Positions 4,052 to 33,073 of a stretch of 64,000 bases of DNA are shown in pieces (within the stretch, counting starts at the first letter, position 1; each line of letters opens with the position of its first letter). The translations under genes and the position numbers were made by a program. Source of the stretch: Modestobacter excelsi (GTDB taxonomy: Bacteria > Actinomycetota > Actinomycetes > Mycobacteriales > Geodermatophilaceae); the NCBI RefSeq assembly GCF_005930495.1, contig NZ_SJEX01000012.1, forward strand, positions 1-64,000. Direction: 5' to 3'. Below the pieces are notes generated by a model that ran no database searches, was not told where the DNA came from, and worked only from the letters and a program-made list of their open reading frames with translations.

Positions 4052-5716
4052 ATGGGACTGTCCGTCCTCGGGCCGGTGCAACTAGACGGTGCGGATGGAC
4101 CGATCAGGGTGCCGGGGCGCAAGGCGCGCGAGGTCCTCACGATGCTGGTTCTGGCTTCGCCCAGGCCCCTGTCCGTGGAGACCATCTCTACGCAGCTGTG
4201 GGAGGATCCGCCGCCGGCGGCGACGAAGACCATCCAGGGCCATCTGTCCCGGCTGCGGTCGGTGCTGGCGGCGGCCCGTCCGTCCGTCGGATCCATCGAT
4301 GGCACCACCTCGGGCTACGCGTTCGCCGCCCGCAGCGGCGAGGTGGACGTCGCGGTCATCGACGACCTGCGTGCGGCGGCGCGGCTGGCTGGACTGGCCG
4401 GTGATCATCGACGTGCCGCCGAGCTGCTGGATGAGGCCGTGGCGCTCTGGCGTGGGGAGCCCGAGCTGCCGGCGACGATCCGCGGTGACCTCGAGCGCGC
4501 GGCCCTGGCCGAGCAGCGGCTGGACCTGAGCGAGGACCGGCTGGCGGCGATGATTTACTCCGGTCGCAGCCGGGAGGTGATCGCCGAGCTGGACCGGCTG
4601 GTCGCCGTACACCCGCTGCGGGAGCGACTGTGGGCGCTGCTGATCGAGGCACTCTACCGCGCGGGCCGGCAGGCGGACGCCCTGGCGCAGTGCCGACGGG
4701 TGCGGAGCCAGCTCCGCCGGGAAATCGGCGTCGACCCGGGGTCGGAGCTACGCCGCATCGAGCACCAGGTGGTTACCCAGTCTCTGCCGGAGGCCACCGT
4801 CTCGCCGGTCGATAGCGGAGAGGGGTCAACCGTGCGCTTCGACGGCCCGCACTACGCCGTCGCGGGCGAAGCGCACGTCGCCTACGGGATCATCGCCGAC
4901 GTCGCGTCCGGGACCGCCGCCGTGCGCGACCTGCTCCTAATCAACCCGACCTTCATCCCGATCGACTCCTATCTCGAGCAACCCGACGTGGCGCGGGCCA
5001 TGCGGCTGCTGGCTCGTGACCGACGCGTGCTTGTCTACGACCGACGCGGAGTCGGACTGTCCGACCCGGCCACGCCGCAAGACGCACCGTCCATCGCCGA
5101 GTGGGCCGCCGACGCAGTGGCGGTCCTCGACGCGGTCGGCGCGACGACCGTCGACGTGCTGGCCAACGCCGACACCTCGATGATCGCCGTGACCCTCGCG
5201 GCCGACCACCCCACCCGGGTCCGGGCGATCGGCCTTGTCAACGGCTACCCCCGCTTCACCCGTGCGCACGATTACCCCTACGGACAGCCGACGGCAGAGA
5301 TCGCCGGCCTACTGAACGCCATACGGAGCACGGCGCCGCCGCCAGGCGTCGACGTGCTCGCCTGGCGCCTGCCCGCCGTGGCCCCCGACCCTGGGTTTCG
5401 TGCGTGGTGGGACGCGGTCGGCCGCCGCGGTGCCAGTCCGCGATCAGCGGCGGTCATCCACGAGGTCATCCTCCGGGCGGACGTGCGCAACCGCCTCGCC
5501 GAGGTGAGCACCCCGGTGCTGTTGATCTGCCGCACCGGCTGCGCGTCGTACGACCCGGGGCACAGCCGCTATCTCGCCAGCCGGCTTCCCACCGCCACCT
5601 TCCGCGAGCACGCCGACCCGAACGACGCGTGGTTCGTCGGCGACGTCGACTGGGTGGTCGAGGAGCTCAACGCGTTCCTCCGCCCGGTCAACGACGTGAC
5701 CTGCAACTCTGCGTGA
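4052..5716 (+). CDS. SARP/AfsR-type regulator fused to an inactive alpha/beta-hydrolase domain
   Basis: The 554-residue protein starts with an OmpR-like winged helix (about residues 1-90, GRKAREVLTMLVL to TSGYAF). A BTAD helical domain follows (about 95-240, HPLRERLWALLIEALYRAGR), as in AfsR/SARP activators. From about residue 270 it continues as an alpha/beta-hydrolase of the kind found in adenylate-cyclase-linked hydrolases (LVYDRRGVGLSDP). The nucleophile elbow reads A371-N-A373-D-T375 instead of G-x-S-x-G, and the usual catalytic His position near the C-terminus is Asp525. The domain therefore looks non-catalytic and may bind a small ligand. The ATG at 4052 is chosen because it begins the winged helix. 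The gene is divergent from the redox operon it may control. Confidence 0.85.
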   Translation: MGLSVLGPVQLDGADGPIRVPGRKAREVLTMLVLASPRPLSVETISTQLWEDPPPAATKTIQGHLSRLRSVLAAARPSVGSIDGTTSGYAFAARSGEVDVAVIDDLRAAARLAGLAGDHRRAAELLDEAVALWRGEPELPATIRGDLERAALAEQRLDLSEDRLAAMIYSGRSREVIAELDRLVAVHPLRERLWALLIEALYRAGRQADALAQCRRVRSQLRREIGVDPGSELRRIEHQVVTQSLPEATVSPVDSGEGSTVRFDGPHYAVAGEAHVAYGIIADVASGTAAVRDLLLINPTFIPIDSYLEQPDVARAMRLLARDRRVLVYDRRGVGLSDPATPQDAPSIAEWAADAVAVLDAVGATTVDVLANADTSMIAVTLAADHPTRVRAIGLVNGYPRFTRAHDYPYGQPTAEIAGLLNAIRSTAPPPGVDVLAWRLPAVAPDPGFRAWWDAVGRRGASPRSAAVIHEVILRADVRNRLAEVSTPVLLICRTGCASYDPGHSRYLASRLPTATFREHADPNDAWFVGDVDWVVEELNAFLRPVNDVTCNSA

Positions 5717-5982
5717 ACCTTGCTCCGACGAACCACCACCGATCGTAGGAACAGTTGTCCAAATCCGAACACCGCGCGGAGTTGCCCTCACAAGCCGTGA
5801 CACTCGCCAGCTGTGCCGCCGCAAGCACCGAGTTTTCAGGACGCGCCCCGCAATGGCGTCCCTGGGTGGGCCGCTCAAGGACACCAGGGCCAGCGCGCCC
5901 CCAGGCGGCTTCAGGCGGCTTGGTGAGTTCTCGCTTGGCTGCAACGCCCATTCGAGTGTGACGCGCTGCTGCACCGGCGCGC
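5717..5982. other. Convergent intergenic gap
   Basis: This gap lies between the 3' ends of the SARP gene and the hypothetical gene on the other strand. No gene or strong hairpin is visible. Confidence 0.4.
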
Positions 5983-6345
5983 TCAGCTCCCCGCGAGACG
6001 TCCAGCGTGCTCCTGCTCTTCCGGTCGGACCTCCGACGCCCATGTACCGATGAGCCGCCAAGAGGCGGTCCCGCCCTCCGGGATCGCGCCCGTGCCCGCT
6101 GCCAGGGTGTCGTCGATCGTGACCCGTACCCGCGATTCGTCGTCCGGTTCGGCCGCGAAGAGCACCCGCAGCCGAACCTCTTCCCCTGCCCGCTCAGCCC
6201 GAGTGTGGTGCGGAGCGAGCGGGCACGGCGGCTCGTGTTCGGTGCTGCCGCACAGTGCAACGGTGATGGCACCGCCCGGCGCACGGTCGTCGGCGCCAGG
6301 CTCCATCGACAGCAACGCGTCGTGCGCGAACCGCTCCTTGGACAT
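5983..6345 (-). CDS. Conserved hypothetical protein
   Basis: The 120-residue protein contains a beta-rich core with the pattern CGSTEHEPPCPLAPHHT followed by VRLRVLFAAEPDDESRVR. I recognise this as a small uncharacterised actinobacterial family but know no function. The His/Cys-rich middle could bind a metal; that is inference. An AAAGAG ribosome site lies a suitable distance before the ATG. The gene is isolated, with about 270 bases of empty sequence on both sides. Confidence 0.55.
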   Translation of the reverse strand: MSKERFAHDALLSMEPGADDRAPGGAITVALCGSTEHEPPCPLAPHHTRAERAGEEVRLRVLFAAEPDDESRVRVTIDDTLAAGTGAIPEGGTASWRLIGTWASEVRPEEQEHAGRLAGS

Positions 6346-6625
6346 GTGCTCACTCTTTCAGCTCATCCAGCCGCTCCCATGAAGTGACGAATGCGCCGAC
6401 CGATCAGGGCGCCCGCCGCCGGGCTCAGAAGGCCGCCCCGCATCCCACCCCGCCCTGAGTGGGCCGCTGGGGGCGACGCACGGCCGGCTCATCGGGCGGC
6501 CCCTTCAGGAGAGGTCTGACCGCACGAGGTTGAGCTCCTGGACGGCAGGGTCTACCTCGACCGGTTGGACGGCGAGCCTCCGGGGAGACCGCCGTGCTGG
6601 CGCTGCGCGAGGAGGTTGACCCGGC
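6346..6625. other. Intergenic gap without recognised features
   Basis: The 280 bases between two genes of the same strand have no supported coding region. They must hold the promoter of the hypothetical gene ending at 5983. Confidence 0.35.
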
Positions 6626-6931
6626 TCAGACGGCCACTTCGGCCCGCGGCACGACCAGGCCGTGTATCTCGATCTCCGTGACGGCTCTCCCGGCCGGGGG
6701 GATGCCGCCGGCGATCCGGGCCATGACCGGGCCGACCACCTCACGTTCGTAGCGCTCCGCCTGCTCTCGGGAGTCCCAGACCTCGACGATCTGAAAGCCA
6801 TCCCCGGTAGCCCGGGCCAGGTGCACGACAAGGCCGTCGACGACCCCGCCGGTCCGTTGCAGCAGCGCGGCGTGGACGGCGTCGTAGACCTCCACCGGCG
6901 CCGGCACGTCGACGATCACACCCCAGGTCAT
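6626..6931 (-). CDS. Small ABM-like (dimeric alpha/beta barrel) protein
   Basis: The 101-residue product has the feel of an antibiotic-biosynthesis-monooxygenase-like or EthD-like fold: VVDGLVVHLARATGDGF, then FQIVEVWDSREQAERY. The latter is the typical 'vevWdSreaaerf' edge of these dimeric ferredoxin-like barrels. No catalytic residue is diagnostic. Its start overlaps the stop of the upstream mycothiol-type enzyme gene by 4 bases, so the two are co-translated. It may be a cofactor-free monooxygenase or a protective protein; the substrate is unknown. Confidence 0.65.
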   Translation of the reverse strand: MTWGVIVDVPAPVEVYDAVHAALLQRTGGVVDGLVVHLARATGDGFQIVEVWDSREQAERYEREVVGPVMARIAGGIPPAGRAVTEIEIHGLVVPRAEVAV

Positions 6932-7572
6932 GTCGGTCTCCTCATCTCCTCGCGGCGTCGCAGGGCGCGGACGCCGTCCCCGGTGAGCTGGTCCAAGCCC
7001 GCGTCACGGCCGGTGACCAGCAGCAGCAGCGCCGCGACCGGGCCCTGCACCGGCGCGCCGGACCCGATGGCCCAGTCGACGTCAGTGGCGGCCAGCCGCA
7101 GCCCGGCCAGCCGCCGCTGCGCCCGGAACGGGAAGCCCATGTCCCACACCCGCCGGGCCGCCGCCGCCGCTGCGGCGGGGGGCATCGGCCGGGTTCGACC
7201 CAGCGGCAAGGCGACGTCCTGGCCGTGGACCAGCACGTCGATGAGCGGCTCCATCGGCGTGATGAACGGGGCCGTGCGCCGGGAGCCCACCATCGCGCGC
7301 AGCCGCCGCGCGCACTCGTCGGCAGGCAGGGGGGCAGCGCGCAGGGCGGCGTCCCGGATCATCCGGTCGAAGCTGCCCCCTGCCCGGACCGCGCCGACCA
7401 GCGCGGCCCCTAGCCCCATGTGCGCTTGGGTCAGGTGGACGGCGACGTCACCGACCCGCCAGCCGTAGCACAGTGAGGGCGTCTGCCACTCGGCCGGGGA
7501 GAGTTCCTCCAGCAGGTCGGCCAGGCTGGACCGCTCCGCATCGATGGCTTGCCACACCCGGTCGACGTCCAT
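6928..7572 (-). CDS. Maleylpyruvate isomerase family, mycothiol-dependent-type protein
   Basis: The 214-residue protein shows the DinB-like four-helix fold of the TIGR03083 family. The N-terminal part is LSPAEWQTPSLCYGWRVGDV followed by HLTQAHM, the usual 'W.vrDvlaHl' metal-binding region, and a second His lies in DVLVHGQDVALPLG. Members use mycothiol or bind a metal and include maleylpyruvate isomerase, but most are uncharacterised. The gene is divergent from the MarR gene at 7646 and may be its target. Its stop overlaps the ABM-like gene. Confidence 0.75.
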   Translation of the reverse strand: MDVDRVWQAIDAERSSLADLLEELSPAEWQTPSLCYGWRVGDVAVHLTQAHMGLGAALVGAVRAGGSFDRMIRDAALRAAPLPADECARRLRAMVGSRRTAPFITPMEPLIDVLVHGQDVALPLGRTRPMPPAAAAAAARRVWDMGFPFRAQRRLAGLRLAATDVDWAIGSGAPVQGPVAALLLLVTGRDAGLDQLTGDGVRALRRREEMRRPT

Positions 7573-7613
7573 GACGCCTCCTCCGTACCTGGTAAGATGC
7601 TCGTACTAGTTTC

Positions 7614-7628
7614 GTCAGATGATCTGAC
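7614..7628. promoter_or_regulatory. Palindromic operator, probable MarR site
   Basis: A perfect 7-1-7 inverted repeat (gtcagat g atctgac) lies in the 73-base divergent gap between the mycothiol-type enzyme operon and the MarR gene. It is flanked on both sides by tttcgtca-type sequence (7610-7617 and 7629-7635). Its length, symmetry and place fit a MarR dimer site that would control both directions. Confidence 0.6.
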
Positions 7629-7645
7629 TTTCGTCAAGGGGTGCC

Positions 7646-8092
7646 GTGGTAGCAGAATCGAAGGAGCGGCAGAATCTCGGCCTGCTCTGCTTCTACCCGT
7701 ACCGGGCACTGGAGGCGCGCCTGCTCGCCGAGCTCGCCGTGGCGGGGTTCGATGACATCACCCTCGCCCAGGGCCGCATCGCCGCGCGGATCGGTCCCGC
7801 CGGCACGCGGCTCACCGACCTCGCCGAGCAGGCCCTGGTCACCAAGCAGACCGCCGGCTACCTGGTCGACCAGCTGGAGAAGGCCAGCTACGTCCGACGG
7901 GTGCCCGATCCCACCGACGCCCGAGCCCGGCTGGTGCAGATGGCCGAGCGCGGCCAGGCGGTCGTGGCGATCGCCCGCCGCGTGGAGGCCGAGGTGGAGG
8001 CCGAGTGGACGGCGCACCTGGGCGGGGAGGCCACCGCCCAACTGCGGGCGACGCTGGAACGGCTGCGGGAGATCACCGACCCGCACCGCTGA
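7646..8092 (+). CDS. MarR-family transcriptional regulator
   Basis: The 148-residue protein has the MarR winged helix. The recognition region is RLTDLAEQALVTKQTAGYLVDQLEKASYV, whose core reads LVTKQTAGYLVDQLE, and the wing is RRVPDPTDARARLVQ with the conserved DxR. Helices for dimerisation flank it. The GTG start has an AAGGGG ribosome site. The gene is divergent from the 6626-7572 operon, with a palindrome in between that is its likely operator. The inducing ligand is unknown. Confidence 0.9.
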   Translation: MVAESKERQNLGLLCFYPYRALEARLLAELAVAGFDDITLAQGRIAARIGPAGTRLTDLAEQALVTKQTAGYLVDQLEKASYVRRVPDPTDARARLVQMAERGQAVVAIARRVEAEVEAEWTAHLGGEATAQLRATLERLREITDPHR

Positions 8093-8305
8093 CCGGGCCG
8101 CCAGGCAGGTGCAGCCGGCACGGTCGGTCCAGCGTCTATGTACCGACCGTCCGCAGCCTGCACAGACCGACGCGAAGCCTCCGTCCGGGCCTTTGCACCC
8201 GGAGGAGTGACGCGAACACGAAGGCGCGCCGCCGGTGCCGAGACGTCCCTTAGTGGGCCGCGCGGGACACGTCGTCGACCACCCGGCGTTCGGTCTGCCG
8301 GCTCG
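8093..8305. other. Convergent intergenic gap
   Basis: The 213 bases lie between the 3' ends of the MarR gene and the hydrolase gene. I see no gene, tRNA or strong hairpin here. Confidence 0.35.
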
Positions 8306-8992
8306 TCAGCGGACCCTGCCGAGAACATCGGCGAGCTCGTCAGGCATCGACGTCATGGGCGAATGAGATGAGGGAAGCCGGTGCCGGTGGTCGGCGGCAG
8401 CGGCCATCTGCTCCTGAGCGACGGGAGGAAGGCCCTGGTCCCGCTCACAGATGATGTACGTCGTCGGATGGCCGCGGTGAGGTGCGGTGCTGGGGTCGGT
8501 AGCGCTGGCGATCGATTGTGGTCCGAAGCGACGCAGGTTGGCATAGGCGCGCTCCTGGTCGACGTCGTCGCACAGAGCCTGCCGGAGCGCCTCCAGATCA
8601 TCGGTGGTCCTGAGCGTTCCGTCCTCGTGCGGCGACACCCACGTCGGCGGCGGCCCCCCGGCGAGCAGCTCCATCGCCGACTGCCCCCGCTGCGGCCAGA
8701 ACGCGGCGAGGTAGACGCTGTGGGCGACCGCCGGATGATCGGCGAGTTCGGTGATCACCATCCCGCCATAGGAGTGACCCACGAGGACGACGGGTTCCCC
8801 GACTCGTTCCACTGCCTGCCTCACAGCATGCGCGTCGGCGGCCAGGCCTCCGAGTGCCGCGGGATCGGTCCCACCGCTCGGTAGCTGTTCGATCACCTCG
8901 ACGCGATGCCCAGCCTTCCTCAGCCGGTCCGCGACCTCGTTCCAGTACCAGCCCCCGACCCACCCACCGTGCACGAGCACGAAGTTGGTCAT
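8306..8992 (-). CDS. Alpha/beta-fold hydrolase (esterase-like)
   Basis: The 228-residue protein starts MTNFVLVHGGWVGGWYW, with the HGG oxyanion strand. The nucleophile elbow is VGHSYGGMV and the catalytic His lies in SSHSPMTSMPDELA, the standard ending of the salicylate-esterase / hydroxynitrile-lyase-like group of small hydrolases. The reading frame is open upstream of 8992, but the fold begins at this ATG. It is a small stand-alone gene; the substrate is unknown. Confidence 0.8.
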   Translation of the reverse strand: MTNFVLVHGGWVGGWYWNEVADRLRKAGHRVEVIEQLPSGGTDPAALGGLAADAHAVRQAVERVGEPVVLVGHSYGGMVITELADHPAVAHSVYLAAFWPQRGQSAMELLAGGPPPTWVSPHEDGTLRTTDDLEALRQALCDDVDQERAYANLRRFGPQSIASATDPSTAPHRGHPTTYIICERDQGLPPVAQEQMAAAADHRHRLPSSHSPMTSMPDELADVLGRVR

Positions 8993-9098
8993 CACACCAG
9001 TGTGATGCTCGTCACTTGCTGACTGCAATGGCCGATCGTCGCTTCGTCGTCCCCACCCCGGGTGGACCGGGCCCGCGGGCACGGCGCAGGCTGGTGCC

Positions 9099-9332
9099 GT
9101 GGCGAACCTGATCGGCCTCCGGCCGCGACGACCGGGCACGGACGACGACGGCGGCGGTGCGCAGGACCGGCTGACCGGCCCGTTGCACGCGGTGGAGGGC
9201 GCGGCCGGCCGGGTGGCCGCCGAGCAGCACACCGACGTCCAGCCGCTCTGCGGGGAGTGGGTGCAAGTGGTGCCGGTGGAGGACGTGCCCGATGACGCCG
9301 GTCTGTGCCCGGCCTGCCAGCACGGGGGCTGA
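9099..9332 (+). CDS. Small hypothetical protein with two Cys motifs
   Basis: A possible 77-residue gene starting at GTG 9099. The C-terminal half (PLCGEWVQVVPVEDVPDDAG then LCPACQH) has a lone Cys followed by a CxxC, like small uncharacterised actinobacterial proteins that may bind zinc. The N-terminal half has low complexity. It lies between two minus-strand genes and has no good ribosome site, so it may not be expressed. Confidence 0.4.
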   Translation: MANLIGLRPRRPGTDDDGGGAQDRLTGPLHAVEGAAGRVAAEQHTDVQPLCGEWVQVVPVEDVPDDAGLCPACQHGG

Positions 9333-9459
9333 CCGCCCGCCGCGGGGCGGCCCGGTGGCCGTTGTCTCGACCACCGGACCTGGGCGCGGCCGCGCGTCGA
9401 CACGCGGCCGAGCCCTGCTCGCGTCCTGCCCCCGGAGCCGGTGCCGAACCGGCGCGGGG

Positions 9460-9839
9460 TCAGGTCGGCCCGGCTGCGCCGCGGTCGAAGGCGCCGGTCT
9501 GCACCAGCTCCTCGGCGACCGCGCGGACCTTCCGGTTCGTGCGCATGGAGACCGCCGCCAGCGCCTGGTGGCGGCCGCGTGCAGGCAGGGGCCGTAGCCG
9601 CGGCCGTACTGGCTCTCGTCCAGGTCCGTCGCGAGCTGCCCGGTGGACACCGCCGTGCTCGCCTTGTCGTTGACCAGCAAGGAGATCGAGCACTCCGGGT
9701 CGCCGGGAAGGACCTGCTTGGCGAGCTCGACGACGGTCTGCAGGACCGACTGCATCGAGTGCTCGCGGAGGGTCAGCGTGCCGAGGCGTTCGAGCGCCTC
9801 GACGACGCGGTCTCGGGGGACGTCGTCAATCGGGGACAT
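9460..9839 (-). pseudogene. GAF-ANTAR regulator with internal deletion
   Basis: From the ATG at 9839 the frame encodes the first half of a GAF domain (ECSISLLVNDKASTAVSTGQ, then DESQYGRGYGPCLHAA). At about 9590 the similarity jumps to another frame that encodes only the last helix of an ANTAR RNA-binding domain (HQALAAVSMRTNRKVRAVAE, then ELVQTGAFD) and stops at 9460. The second half of GAF and most of ANTAR are missing. I read this as a single deletion that fused the two ends out of frame. Intact members are antitermination regulators with a sensory GAF domain. Confidence 0.7.
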
Positions 9840-10252
9840 GTGCGTCTCCGGTCTGGTGCACCGGGGGGGCGACCTCGGCCGGAGCCCTGGGTGGGGCTCC
9901 GCTTCTCGCGCGCCGCTGCCTGACGCTGGCCGCCCCGACCGGGACGGCGCGCCCCTCACCCTACCCACAGCCACGCCGGCCCTGCCCGGATTCACAGCCG
10001 CACGGACCTCCCCCGGCTGGCTGTGCTGGCCGGGCACAACGCGTCACACAGCCGGCGTGGAGCACACGGGGTCCTCGGACCCCTTCCTCACCGGACCTCC
10101 GGGGCACCCCGGGTCCGGCATCCGCCGGCACCCGTTGTCCGGTGCCTGACGACGCCGGAGTACGACGTGAGCCGCCCCATCCCCCGGTTCGTCGAGACGG
10201 GCGAACTGCGCTCGGGGTGACCGGCCGGCCGCTGGCGCGGCAGGATCGCGGC
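9840..10252. other. Intergenic region upstream of enoyl-CoA hydratase
   Basis: About 410 bases without a supported gene lie between the divergent GAF-ANTAR remnant and the hydratase gene. Open frames through it have no family resemblance. The region presumably holds two promoters; I could not pin them down. Confidence 0.35.
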
Positions 10253-11041
10253 ATGCCGCAGCGCAGCGAGTCCGGTCTGGTCACCGAGACCCGGGGGCAC
10301 GTCCGGGTGCTCACCCTGGACCGGCCCGAGCGGCGCAACGCGCTGTCCAGCGCGCTGCAGGCCGACCTGGTGGCGGAGCTGCTGGACTGCGCCTCGGACG
10401 GCGAGGTCCGCGCCGTCGTGCTGACCGGGAACGGCCCGGCCTTCTGCGCCGGGTTCGACCTCAAGGAGATCCGCGAGCTCGACCAGCGCGGCGAGGCGTT
10501 CCGGCCGCCGATGGACCGCCCGGGGCGCAACCTGTTCGAGGTGCTCAGCGAGACCTACGTGCCGGTGATCGCCGCGCTGACCGGGCACGCCGTGGCCGGG
10601 GGCTTCGAGCTGGCGCTCGCCTGCGACATCCGGATCGCCGCCCCCGGCATCCGGCTGGGCCTGCCGGAGGCGACGATCGGCATGGGCGCCAACTACGGCT
10701 CCGTGGTGCTGCCCAAGCGGGTCCCGACCGGCATCGCGCTGGAGATGCTGTTCACCGGCGACCCGGTGACCAGCGAGGACGCCGCCCACTGGGGACTGGT
10801 CAACCGCGTCGTCCCGGCCGAGGAGGTGCTGCCCGAGGCGCTGGCGCTGGCCGAGCGGATCGCCGCCAACGCCCCGCTGTCGGTGCGCCGGATGAAGGAG
10901 ACCGCGGTCAAGGGGCTGGAGCTGCCGCTGGCGACCGCGCTGCGGCTCGACGTCGGGCCCAACCCCTACCTCAGCGAGGACCGCAAGGAGGGCATCGCCG
11001 CACGCCTGGAGAAGCGGCCGCCCCGCTGGTCGGGCCGGTGA
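10253..11041 (+). CDS. Enoyl-CoA hydratase/isomerase family protein
   Basis: The 262-residue crotonase-fold protein has the N-terminal LDRPERRNALSSAL signature, the CoA/oxyanion loop AFCAGFDLKEI, the second oxyanion segment ALTGHAVAGGFELALACDIR, and the PEATIGMGANYGS region, where a Glu at the first catalytic position is kept. The length is normal for the family. It would hydrate or isomerise an acyl-CoA; the chain length is unknown. It ends against the next gene (GTGA overlap or 15-base gap, depending on the start used there). Confidence 0.85.
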   Translation: MPQRSESGLVTETRGHVRVLTLDRPERRNALSSALQADLVAELLDCASDGEVRAVVLTGNGPAFCAGFDLKEIRELDQRGEAFRPPMDRPGRNLFEVLSETYVPVIAALTGHAVAGGFELALACDIRIAAPGIRLGLPEATIGMGANYGSVVLPKRVPTGIALEMLFTGDPVTSEDAAHWGLVNRVVPAEEVLPEALALAERIAANAPLSVRRMKETAVKGLELPLATALRLDVGPNPYLSEDRKEGIAARLEKRPPRWSGR

Positions 11042-11055
11042 GGGAGAGTGGGGAC

Positions 11056-11442
11056 GTGAGCGCACCGTCCGAGTCCCCCGCCGACGCCGGCGTCCGGCTG
11101 GCCCAGGAGCACCTGCGGCTGGTCGAGGCCGGCCGCCCGGACGACGCCGAGGCGCTGCTGGCCGGGCTGACCGACGCCCGCGCGCTGGTCTTCGCCGGCG
11201 CCGGGTTCACCGTGCTGGCCCGCCGCACCGGCCGCACCCTGCCCACCGCGATGCGCGCCCAGGCGAGCACCCGGCAGGTCCGGCTCGGCCAGCTGCGGGA
11301 CGCCAACCGGGGGGACGTCGAGGGCCTCCGCACCTGGCTGCGCGAGGCGGCCGAGGAGCTGGTCACGGTGACCCGGCTGGCCGCGGAGGCGCGCCTGCGG
11401 CTGGGGCCCCCGTCGTCGTACGGAGCGCCCGGGGCAGGGTGA
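11056..11442 (+). CDS. Conserved hypothetical, predicted helical protein
   Basis: The product of about 128 residues is mostly alpha-helical (AQEHLRLVEAGRPDDAEALL, then RQVRLGQLRDANRGDVEGLR). I do not recognise a family. The start at GTG 11056 is preferred because GGGAGAG lies before it; a GTG at 11038 overlapping the hydratase stop is the alternative. Its last 80 bases overlap the 3' end of the MFS gene on the other strand, so one of the two stop assignments constrains the other. It is probably co-transcribed with the hydratase. Confidence 0.55.
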   Translation: MSAPSESPADAGVRLAQEHLRLVEAGRPDDAEALLAGLTDARALVFAGAGFTVLARRTGRTLPTAMRAQASTRQVRLGQLRDANRGDVEGLRTWLREAAEELVTVTRLAAEARLRLGPPSSYGAPGAG

Positions 11443-12586
11443 CCGCCAGCGGCAGGACACCGGCCATCAGCACGGCGACGAGGACGTAGGTGGTCGGCAG
11501 CCCGATACCGGCGGCGATCGCGCCCACGGCCAGGGCTCCGATCGCCGTCCCGCTGTCGTAGCTGGCGTTCCAGACCGCACTGACCGTGGTCGACTGGTCG
11601 GCGTCGGCGCGGGCCAGGGCGACGACCAGCGTGAGGTTCTGCACCGCCCCGTAGGCGACGCCCAGCGCCAGCACACCGGCGAGCACCGCGGCGGTGCCGG
11701 GCACCCCCTCGACCGCCAGGCCGAGCGCCACCAGCAGCATGCCGACGATCCCGCTGGTCAGCGCAGCGGGCAGCAGCACCCGGGCGCCGGCGCGATCGAC
11801 GAGCACGCCCACCCGCCAGCGGCACAGCGCCGTGCTGACGCCGAACAGCAGCAGGGCGACCGCAGCGAGCGAGCCGTCCGGCCGCTCGATCGGCAGGAAG
11901 GTCACCAGCCCACCGCCGGCCAGCGTGACCGCGAGCAGCACCAGCGACGGCCCTGCGGCCGCCCGCACCGCCGCTCGGGACCCGCCCGGCGCGGGTGGCG
12001 GTAGTGGCGGTCCGAGCGCGCGCGCCAGCCCGGGCACGAACGCCAGCGCGAGCAACGAGCCCGCCGCCAGCACGGCGACCCACTCGAAGTGCCCAGCCAG
12101 GGTCAGCGCCGTGCCGCCCGGCACGGCGACCAGCGATGGGATCGCCGCCGCCAGCCCGAAGATGCCGATGGACTCCCCGCGGCGTTCCGGCGGCACCGCC
12201 TGCGCGGCGATCACCGAGCCCAGCACAGTCAGGACGGCGAACCCGGTGCCGCGGACCGCAGAGACGGCGAGCAGCCACGCCACGTCGTCGGAGACCAGGT
12301 AGAACGGTGACGGGAGCCCCAGGGCCACCAGGCCACCGACCAGCACCGGGCCCAGCCTCCAGCGCCGCACCAGCGCCGGCACCGTGCCCTGCACCAGCAC
12401 GGTGACCACCAGGAAGACCGTGGTCGCCGAACCGGCCACGACCAGCCCGGCCCCCCGGTCGGCCGCATGCGCCGGCAGCGCGGACAGCAGCAGCGCGTAG
12501 CTGGAGATGCCCAGCAGCACGACCGCGAACATGGCGCGCACCGCCGGCACCCGCCACAGGGAGCTGCGCTGCTCCACCGTCGTCAC
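11363..12586 (-). CDS. MFS transporter
   Basis: The 407-residue protein has about 12 hydrophobic helices in two halves. The motif-A-like loops are weak, but the ERRGESIGIFGLAAAIPSL segment after helix 4 is characteristic of drug-efflux type MFS proteins. The GTG at 12586 (VTTVEQRSS) is the natural start, just before the first helix. The C-terminal tail (RTTTGAPAAG, Pro/Ala rich) runs over the end of the convergent hypothetical gene. The substrate is unknown; efflux is the likely direction. Confidence 0.85.
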   Translation of the reverse strand: MTTVEQRSSLWRVPAVRAMFAVVLLGISSYALLLSALPAHAADRGAGLVVAGSATTVFLVVTVLVQGTVPALVRRWRLGPVLVGGLVALGLPSPFYLVSDDVAWLLAVSAVRGTGFAVLTVLGSVIAAQAVPPERRGESIGIFGLAAAIPSLVAVPGGTALTLAGHFEWVAVLAAGSLLALAFVPGLARALGPPLPPPAPGGSRAAVRAAAGPSLVLLAVTLAGGGLVTFLPIERPDGSLAAVALLLFGVSTALCRWRVGVLVDRAGARVLLPAALTSGIVGMLLVALGLAVEGVPGTAAVLAGVLALGVAYGAVQNLTLVVALARADADQSTTVSAVWNASYDSGTAIGALAVGAIAAGIGLPTTYVLVAVLMAGVLPLAVTLPRALRTTTGAPAAGAPPRPAGSP

Positions 12587-31457: not shown

Positions 31458-31581
31458 GGCAGCAGGATGACCGACCGCCGAGCCGCTGCCCGGCAGGCGC
31501 GCGGGCGGGACCTGACAGCACTGTGTCCGTTCCGTGGGACCTGGGATGGGGCGTGAAGATCAACACGTCTACTGTTCAGGT

Positions 31582-32202
31582 GTGCCCAACCAGAACGGCT
31601 CCGATGGTGATCGACCGGGTCGTGGCGGCCGCCCGCGTGACCCGTCCCGGGACGGCGCCATCCGGGAGGCGATCCTGCAGGTGCTCGCCGAGTCCGGCTA
31701 CGCGGGCCTGACCATGGACGCCGTGGCCGCTGCCGCCGGCGTGGGCAAGGCGACGATCTACCGGCGCTGGCGCACCAAGTCCGACCTGGTCACCGACGCG
31801 GTCGCCGGGCTGAGCTCGATGTCGATCGACAGCCCTGACACCGGGTCGCTCGAGGGCGACCTGCGGGTGCTGCTGCGCTGGCTGGTCGGCGCCGTCAACG
31901 GCCCGCTCGGGGCGGCCACCTTGTCGCTGCTGTCGGCGATGCCGCACGAGCCGGGGTTGCGCGAGGCGTTCCACAGCGGCCCGATGGGCGTCTGGAGCAC
32001 GACGTTCCGCGAGGTCTGGGAGCGCGCCGAGGCCCGCGGTGAGGTGCAGCAGCCGATCGCCGGGACGGCGGTGGCCTCGACCGCCAGCGCGCCGATCCTG
32101 CAGCGCTGGCTGTTCAGCGCGGAGCCGGTGCCGGAGACCTTCGCCGACGAGCTGCTCGCCGACGTCGTCATGCCGCTGATCGGCGTGCGCAACGCCGCCT
32201 GA
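31582..32202 (+). CDS. TetR-family transcriptional regulator
   Basis: The 206-residue protein has the TetR N-terminal helix-turn-helix: AILQVLAESGYAGLTMDAVA followed by AGVGKATIYRRWRTKSDLV. The ligand-binding C-terminal domain (MPHEPGLREAFHSGP region) is of the TetR_C-16-like type. GTG 31582 is the likely start. It is divergent from the EAL gene and ends 3 bases from the csoR/copA chimera on the other strand. Confidence 0.88.
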   Translation: MPNQNGSDGDRPGRGGRPRDPSRDGAIREAILQVLAESGYAGLTMDAVAAAAGVGKATIYRRWRTKSDLVTDAVAGLSSMSIDSPDTGSLEGDLRVLLRWLVGAVNGPLGAATLSLLSAMPHEPGLREAFHSGPMGVWSTTFREVWERAEARGEVQQPIAGTAVASTASAPILQRWLFSAEPVPETFADELLADVVMPLIGVRNAA

Positions 32203-32205
32203 GGC

Positions 32206-32526
32206 TCAGCCCGTGTCGACCGCCGACCGGAAGCCGCGCAGCCGCAGGCTGTTGGCGACCACCAGCACCGAGGACGCCGCCATCGCCAGCCCGGCCAGCA
32301 CCAGGTTGGCGGTCGAGGCCTCGGCGATCTTCGCCTCGGCGGCCGCGCCGTCGTCGTCGGCGCTGCTGGTGACCGCCTGCAGGGCCTTGGTCGCCGCGGA
32401 GACCGGGGTGAGGACGTCGATGCAGCAGGTGTCCTCCTCCACCATCCGCGCGATGCACCGGACCTGGCCCTCGACGCGCTCGAGGCGGGCGAGGACCTGC
32501 TCCTTGTCGTCGGCGTGGCCGGTCGT
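32206..32526 (-). pseudogene. csoR / copA chimeric remnant
   Basis: The frame encodes the front part of a CsoR copper repressor (DKEQVLARLERVEGQVRCIA, then EEDTCCIDVLTPVSAATKAL). It lacks the segment with the His and second Cys copper ligands, retains EAKIAEAS from the CsoR end, and then passes straight into the last 33 residues of a CopA-type copper ATPase (AGLAMAASSVLVVANSLRLR, 32206-32307). No in-frame start codon lies between the stop of the upstream DUF427 gene and the CsoR segment. It is therefore best read as the scar of a collapsed csoR-copA locus, not a working repressor. Confidence 0.75.
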
Positions 32527-32554
32527 GCAGCCGTCGTACCCCCCGGGGTACCGG

Positions 32555-33073
32555 TCACCAGCCGCGGGTGCCGGGCTCCCCCTTGAACGGGCCGACCACC
32601 TCGGCGGTGATCCAGCCGCCGTAGAAGTTCCCGGCCTGGGCACGCACGGGCTCCCCGTCGACGGTCGCGCGGTCGACGCGGCTCGGGTAGAACGCGAGCG
32701 CGCCGCGCAGCTGCTCGTAGCCGGCGGTGGGCCGCTCGTAGGACCAGGCGACCGAGGACCACCGGACGCCGTCGACGACGGCGTCCCAGTAGGTCGCCGT
32801 CCCCTTGAACTCACACCACGACGACCCGGCGGCGCGCTCCAGGACACCGGGGGCGACGTCGTCGCGGGGCACGTAGAAGACCGGGGGGTGGCTGGTCTCG
32901 CAGACGCGGACGGCGCGGTCGGTGGCGGCGACGACGCGGCCGCCGAGGACGACCTCGATCCGCCGTCCGGTCACCTCGGCCGACGGCGGACGTGGGTAGT
33001 CCCAGACGGACTCCTGATCGGGGCCGACCGGGTCGGGCTGTGGGTGGCGCACTCCCCGATTGTGCGCCACCAA
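32555..33073 (-). CDS. DUF427 domain-containing protein
   Basis: The 172-residue protein matches DUF427: [35 protein letters not shown], the conserved TYWDAVVDG and the closing Tyr/Pro-rich block AFYPSRVD. Members are small beta-barrel-like proteins of unknown function found widely in actinobacteria. The gene abuts the csoR/copA remnant, whose copper context may be accidental. Confidence 0.85.

Follow-up and report, generated by a model that had tools for sequence, protein, structure and literature searches.

The fused open frame in the window, the analysed stretch of 64,000 nucleotides from Modestobacter excelsi, is the pseudogene scar of the ancestral Modestobacter csoR-copA operon, a reading to which a probability of about 95% is assigned. 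It would encode neither a working repressor nor a pump and would be without function. The scar is of a known kind, a pseudogene left over from an operon whose type is known. The evidence consists of homology to CsoR and CopA, synteny with related genomes, two breakpoints, a lost start codon, altered operator spacing, lost copper ligands, and a junction that is absent from the relatives searched (Table 1). A deletion scar had already been proposed in the initial annotation, and the intact csoR-copA genes that relatives carry at the same place support this proposal and fix both breakpoints.

In the proposed course of events, a deletion of 51 bp would have occurred inside csoR and a deletion of ~2.4 kb would have removed the DNA from the end of csoR to the tail of copA. 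The start codon would have been lost, the operator would have been shortened by 1 bp, and csoR would have acquired several radical substitutions, with the remnant then changing at about the neutral rate. The frame would have stayed open because stop codons are rare at 73.7% GC and because both junctions happen to keep phase.

Table 1. Positions of the csoR-copA scar, its component pieces, and its flanking genes in the window
Feature	Position	Strand	Remarks
Fused open frame	32526-32206	minus	106 residues plus stop
CsoR front, residues 1-52	32371..32526	minus	Y4H, K16E, G24C, Y34C, and Q41P at conserved positions
CsoR C-terminal piece TSSADDDGAAAEAKIAEASTA, residues 53-73	32308..32370	minus	by alignment to relatives
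CopA tail, last 33 residues (frame residues 74-106)	32209..32307	minus	stop TGA at 32206-32208
Deletion 1 junction	32370..32371	minus	51 bp gone, between GCGGT direct repeats
Deletion 2 junction	32307..32308	minus	2,384 bp gone compared with G001, 2-nt CA microhomology
Former csoR start, now ACG	32524..32526	minus	ATG or GTG in relatives
Decayed CsoR operator TACCCCGGGGGGTA	32537..32550	minus	one base shorter than the relatives' TACCCC-N3-GGGGTA
DUF427 gene	32555..33073	minus	flank
TetR-family regulator gene	31534..32202	plus	flank, past the copA end

Composition of the fused open frame

The frame is assembled from three pieces that follow one another in the order CsoR front, CsoR end, and CopA tail. 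Residues 7-55 match the Pfam family Trns_repr_metal (PF02583, CsoR) over positions 1-49 of the 78-position profile with 60.6 bits (cut-off 22.8), which makes this part a CsoR homolog by sequence. The CopA tail on its own gives a weak match to copper P-type ATPases (TIGR01511 positions 520-542 of 542, E 0.019; solved CopA 3j09, E 0.074). Its match to the copA genes of the genus is unambiguous, with 91-94% identity from residue 74 to residues 104-106 (G001, G003, and G008). The phosphorylation motif of the CopA copper ATPase is DKTGT. Neither this motif nor the ATPase domains are found in the frame, in which the last 33 residues are what remains of CopA. The initial annotation had described a CsoR front and the last 33 CopA residues in one open frame; the profile and the genus copA matches confirm both. 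The strand, not stated there, is the minus strand. The CsoR C-terminal stretch as a third piece had been overlooked.

The fused frame lies within a stop-free run of 254 codons beginning at 32970. In the window, with its GC content of 73.7%, 42.6% of the codon positions in the six frames sit in stop-free runs of at least 254 codons. Because runs of this length are so common, the openness of the frame carries little weight, and what had initially been called notable is ordinary here. The frame had also been described as devoid of an in-frame start codon. This holds at the native place, where ATG has become ACG. Elsewhere it does not hold, as there is an in-frame ATG at 32445 and in-frame GTG codons are present at 32442, 32643, 32814, and 32847, with more inside the CopA tail.

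The intact operon in relatives and the two deletions

All 22 other genus genomes searched contain a match to the core csoR, with 71-81% identity across residues 2-59 or 2-60, and 21 of them contain a match to the core copA tail, the exception being G006. In G011 and G012, different contigs carry csoR and the copA tail. The site itself was compared in 17 of the 22 genomes. In all 17, csoR is located beyond the TetR gene and an EAL-domain gene, the same arrangement as in the window. The DUF427 gene is found at most 50 bp from csoR in 12 of the 17 and at a distance of 93-817 bp in four (G005, G006, G015, and G018); no DUF427 match was found within the stretch compared in G004. Full-length orthologues stand at this same site, csoR in 17/17 and copA in 16/17 genomes, with the copA of G006 being cut.

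An alignment with such intact loci had been suggested together with a guess at deletions, and it places both breakpoints as had been guessed. With the nearest relative (G001) as the reference, the breakpoints are exact to the base, and the ancestral spacing may have differed from that of G001. Deletion 1 corresponds to exactly 51 bp of G001, which encode CsoR residues 53-69 ALGLLDDHLGHCVRDAV and include the copper ligands His60 and Cys64. It would be explained by slippage between the short repeats. Deletion 2 spans the end of csoR, the intervening DNA, and most of copA, and would be explained by microhomology joining. Judged from their coordinates, csoR and copA of G001 are in different frames, and the length of deletion 2 puts them in phase. 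Both junctions keep phase, for which the chance is ~1 in 9 when phase alone is considered, and this counts against the scar reading.

According to the initial annotation, relatives with the same fused gene would speak for a real gene. As a one-piece match, this gene was found in 0 of the 22 other genus genomes. The deletion-2 junction, searched with up to 3 mismatches (a strongly diverged fusion would escape this search), was found in 1 of 112 family genomes, which is the window genome itself.

On a wider scale, a scan of the family anchored on the EAL-domain gene yielded 78 loci, of which 59 (L059-L117) were analysed and 19 were excluded with EAL matches of 29-38%. Matches to csoR and copA precede the TetR gene in 21 of the 59 loci, which belong to Modestobacter, Klenkia, and one other family member; the copA of L113 is truncated. 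The TetR and EAL genes occur without a neighbouring csoR or copA match in 37 loci from Blastococcus, Geodermatophilus, and others (within L070-L117), and in L116 the EAL gene alone was seen. Among these loci, the distribution of 21 with and 37 without the operon assigns its presence at this place to the Modestobacter-Klenkia side and splits the family.

An independent operon break was observed in G006 (contig C44, L049, ~4755-6450), apparently M. muralis. Its copA is truncated after ~437 residues of the reference stretch and joined to the 3' end of the TetR gene. The csoR of G006 is full length with Q50P (1 of 27 core CsoRs) and has an exact core operator.

Damage to csoR and its rate of change

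Among relatives, csoR starts with ATG in 24 of 27 genomes and with GTG in three; three more (G010, G011, and G012) have ATG as well. Their operator, TACCCC-N3-GGGGTA, is located 25-26 bases upstream of the start. It was evaluated in 30 distinct genomes, 27 of which derive from 38 core rows (11 duplicate ids, the paralogue row L050 being excluded) and are complemented by G010, G011, and G012. Of the 30, 29 have an exact core operator, and G010 retains 11 of 12 bases with the TAC-N9-GTA spacing kept. This spacing is common to 30/30 relatives and is one base short (N8) in the window genome. Thus, the remnant has neither the native start nor the operator spacing of a CsoR repressor (ACG; TAC-N8-GTA), and the stretch between the operator and the start is altered as well. 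In the accessible part of a study on Streptomyces lividans, CsoR sites have 9 bp between TAC and GTA, and binding was abolished when all of those bases were swapped together, which is a broader change than the single base lost at the window site (PMC3902906).

The protein sequence is affected at positions that are conserved in relatives. Y4, G24, Y34, and Q41 are invariant in 27/27 core CsoRs and all four are substituted in the window, and the position of K16E holds Lys or Arg in 27/27. By the RLXR motif and the spacing in the alignment to 4adz, Q41 is the counterpart of Q81 in S. lividans CsoR, whose Q81A variant gave no ITC binding profile in the portion of the study available (PMC3902906). 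The conserved glutamine of helix 2, which is needed for DNA binding, has been replaced with proline in the remnant. Of the Cys-His-Cys copper ligands (Cys35, His60, and Cys64), only Cys35 stays. The ligands of S. lividans CsoR presumably occupy these same positions. The assignment by position is based on C41/H66/C70 of S. aureus CsoR, as given in the accessible part of the source (PMC6191537). A full-length core CsoR with Ser instead of Cys64 was observed in G012, a genome that is 67% complete (L018, csoR 1677-1387, minus strand).

On its own branch, the csoR remnant has accumulated 0 silent and 7 amino-acid changes, counted with omission of the start codon and the CopA tail, compared to 42 silent and 26 amino-acid changes in the five flanking genes summed (Fisher p 0.002). 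The 7 changes are distributed over 160 non-silent sites (4.4%), and the silent rate of the flanks on the same branch is 3.0-5.2%. The amino-acid rate of the remnant is hence about that of silent change in the flanks, as is expected without selection.

When positions 32307-32526 of the window are compared with G001 (L033), no silent difference is seen in the csoR remnant, and the flanking genes differ at 8-15% of their silent sites. Zero silent differences are fewer than the flank divergence predicts, which counts against the scar reading. The third positions of G001 csoR are G or C in 97/97 cases. Such saturation leaves little room for a GC-ward mutation bias and may explain part of the missing silent changes. 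Gene exchange between the window lineage and the G001 lineage may be another account of them.

A rival reading is that the frame encodes a new small membrane protein of at most 79 residues, with translation starting at the ATG at 32445 or re-initiating downstream of DUF427, in which a CsoR helix fragment would be combined with one CopA membrane helix. The internal ATG and GTG codons of the open frame and the phase-keeping nature of both deletions are consistent with such a protein. However, the native start and operator spacing are gone, the stretch between them is altered, amino-acid changes prevail in the csoR remnant and include a proline in a CsoR helix, and the fusion is shared by no relative searched. 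The DUF427 gene, which ends at 32555, is furthermore read in a different frame. Expression by read-through from DUF427, the alternative offered in the initial annotation, is rejected on this ground, as a frameshift or re-initiation would be required. A small membrane protein is accordingly regarded as very unlikely.

Second copper locus and other CsoR sites

The initial annotation had advised looking for a second complete csoR/copA elsewhere in the genome, and one is present on contig C2 (L050, C2:4000-20000). The locus at 5020-12084 comprises an HMA-domain gene, csoR, a gene for a 329-residue protein without a Pfam match, and two copper-type ATPase genes. The sole exact operator of the window genome is located at C2:9545, and a further TIGR01511 match above the cut-off lies on contig C124. 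Copper handling has probably been kept by this second locus. The C2 CsoR shares 73-77% identity with the second CsoRs of five relatives, which share 82-91% among themselves. The term "second locus" thus lumps two kinds that differ in lineage.

The C2 CsoR is the only other CsoR match of the genome and represents a different paralogue, with 52% identity to the remnant over residues 6-61, compared to 71-81% for the core csoRs. These values do not support the idea that the scar arose through recombination with the C2 locus. They also bear on an assembly or sequencing artefact. The genome is a 5.26 Mb draft in 178 contigs, but the scar lies inside contig C25 (76 kb), and a single misjoin cannot account for two separate deletions together with the lost start codon, the operator shortened by 1 bp, and 7 substitutions. 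An artefact is thereby even less probable than a small membrane protein. The least probable of the alternatives is that a truncated CsoR regulates the second locus in a dominant-negative or copper-blind manner. In its favour, R14 and R17 of the RLXR motif are retained and, in the accessible part of the source, S. aureus CsoR with three replaced copper ligands still binds DNA (PMC6191537). Against it stand the loss of the segment following helix 2, the replacement of the essential Gln by Pro and of Gly24 by Cys, and the missing native start.

A general association of a broken core copA with possession of a second csoR-copA locus was considered and not adopted. Core copA is broken in 2 of 6 genomes with a second locus and in 0 of 17 without one (Fisher one-sided 0.059), a suggestive post hoc result that ignores kinship and in which several of the 17 genomes are incomplete (67-80%). 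The exact operator was likewise discarded as a marker of second loci, since in four of six genomes no site upstream of the second csoR matches more than 9-10 of 12 bases.

The exact operator occurs in 1-3 copies per genome in 23/23 genus genomes, and the reversed control pattern in none. A recurring second site (L143-L154) lies upstream of a gene for a DUF4396 membrane protein (Pfam match), which is matched in 13 of the 23 genomes. Eleven sites were readable; G004, where DUF4396 matched in part, was left out, as was G011, whose contig provides 136 bp of upstream sequence in which no site was seen. The operator matches at all 12 fixed bases in 9/9 genomes with an intact core copA and retains 11 of 12 in the two with a broken core copA, the window genome (G000) and G006, each through a different change in the TAC/GTA repeats (GTA to GTG in G006). 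The association has a Fisher p of 0.018, calculated post hoc and with kinship ignored. In the window genome, an operator-like site with one mismatch, CACCCCCGGGGGGTA, was also observed at C150:22737-22751 (L158). No similarity was found between it and either the G001:C77 site or the DUF4396 one.

From their operator sequences, the two cases hint that the CsoR regulon may decay as a unit. A broader proposal, which is rather doubtful, is that Modestobacter repeatedly retires the ancestral CsoR regulon (repressor, pump, and DUF4396 operator) as a unit when another csoR-copA locus is available, and that this happened twice independently, in the window species and in the apparent M. muralis. Against decay as a unit, G006 keeps an exact core operator and a full-length CsoR, albeit with Q50P. 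In G010, csoR and copA are intact and the core operator is inexact, which shows that a one-base deviation can also occur where the locus is unbroken.

The DUF4396 membrane protein is proposed as a candidate CsoR target under copper regulation. In the accessible portion of the literature found, DUF4396 is named once, among elements flanking a metal-resistance cluster. Among the titles listed in a search of the open-access literature, with subscription journals mostly outside it, none concerned a link between CsoR and DUF4396, a csoR-copA scar, or Modestobacter copper regulation. DUF4396 is a family without an assigned function, and the copper regulation by CsoR that this side result proposes for it is directly testable.

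As a pseudogene, the scar is ordinary, and it cautions against reading much into open frames at 74% GC. It is of value as a base-exact record of the loss of a metal-resistance operon, in which the losses of operator, repressor, and pump are all readable.

Compared to CsoR proteins (PF02583, with S. lividans 4adz as the best solved match), scar residues 1-52 and 53-73 are of CsoR descent. Missing from the scar are three functional residues (the conserved Gln and the His and second Cys that bind copper), the native start codon, and the segment that would link helix 2 to the C-terminus. With the CopA-type P1B ATPases (TIGR01511), the scar shares the C-terminal helix and tail, the last 33 residues, and it lacks all preceding parts, among them the domains for metal binding, phosphorylation, and ATP binding. 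The scar resembles other bacterial pseudogenes and operon deletion remnants in that its flanks are arranged as in relatives, its start and operator are lost, short repeats mark its breakpoints, and its rate of change is near neutral. Unlike the usual deletion remnants, its frame stays open, although this is common in GC-rich DNA.
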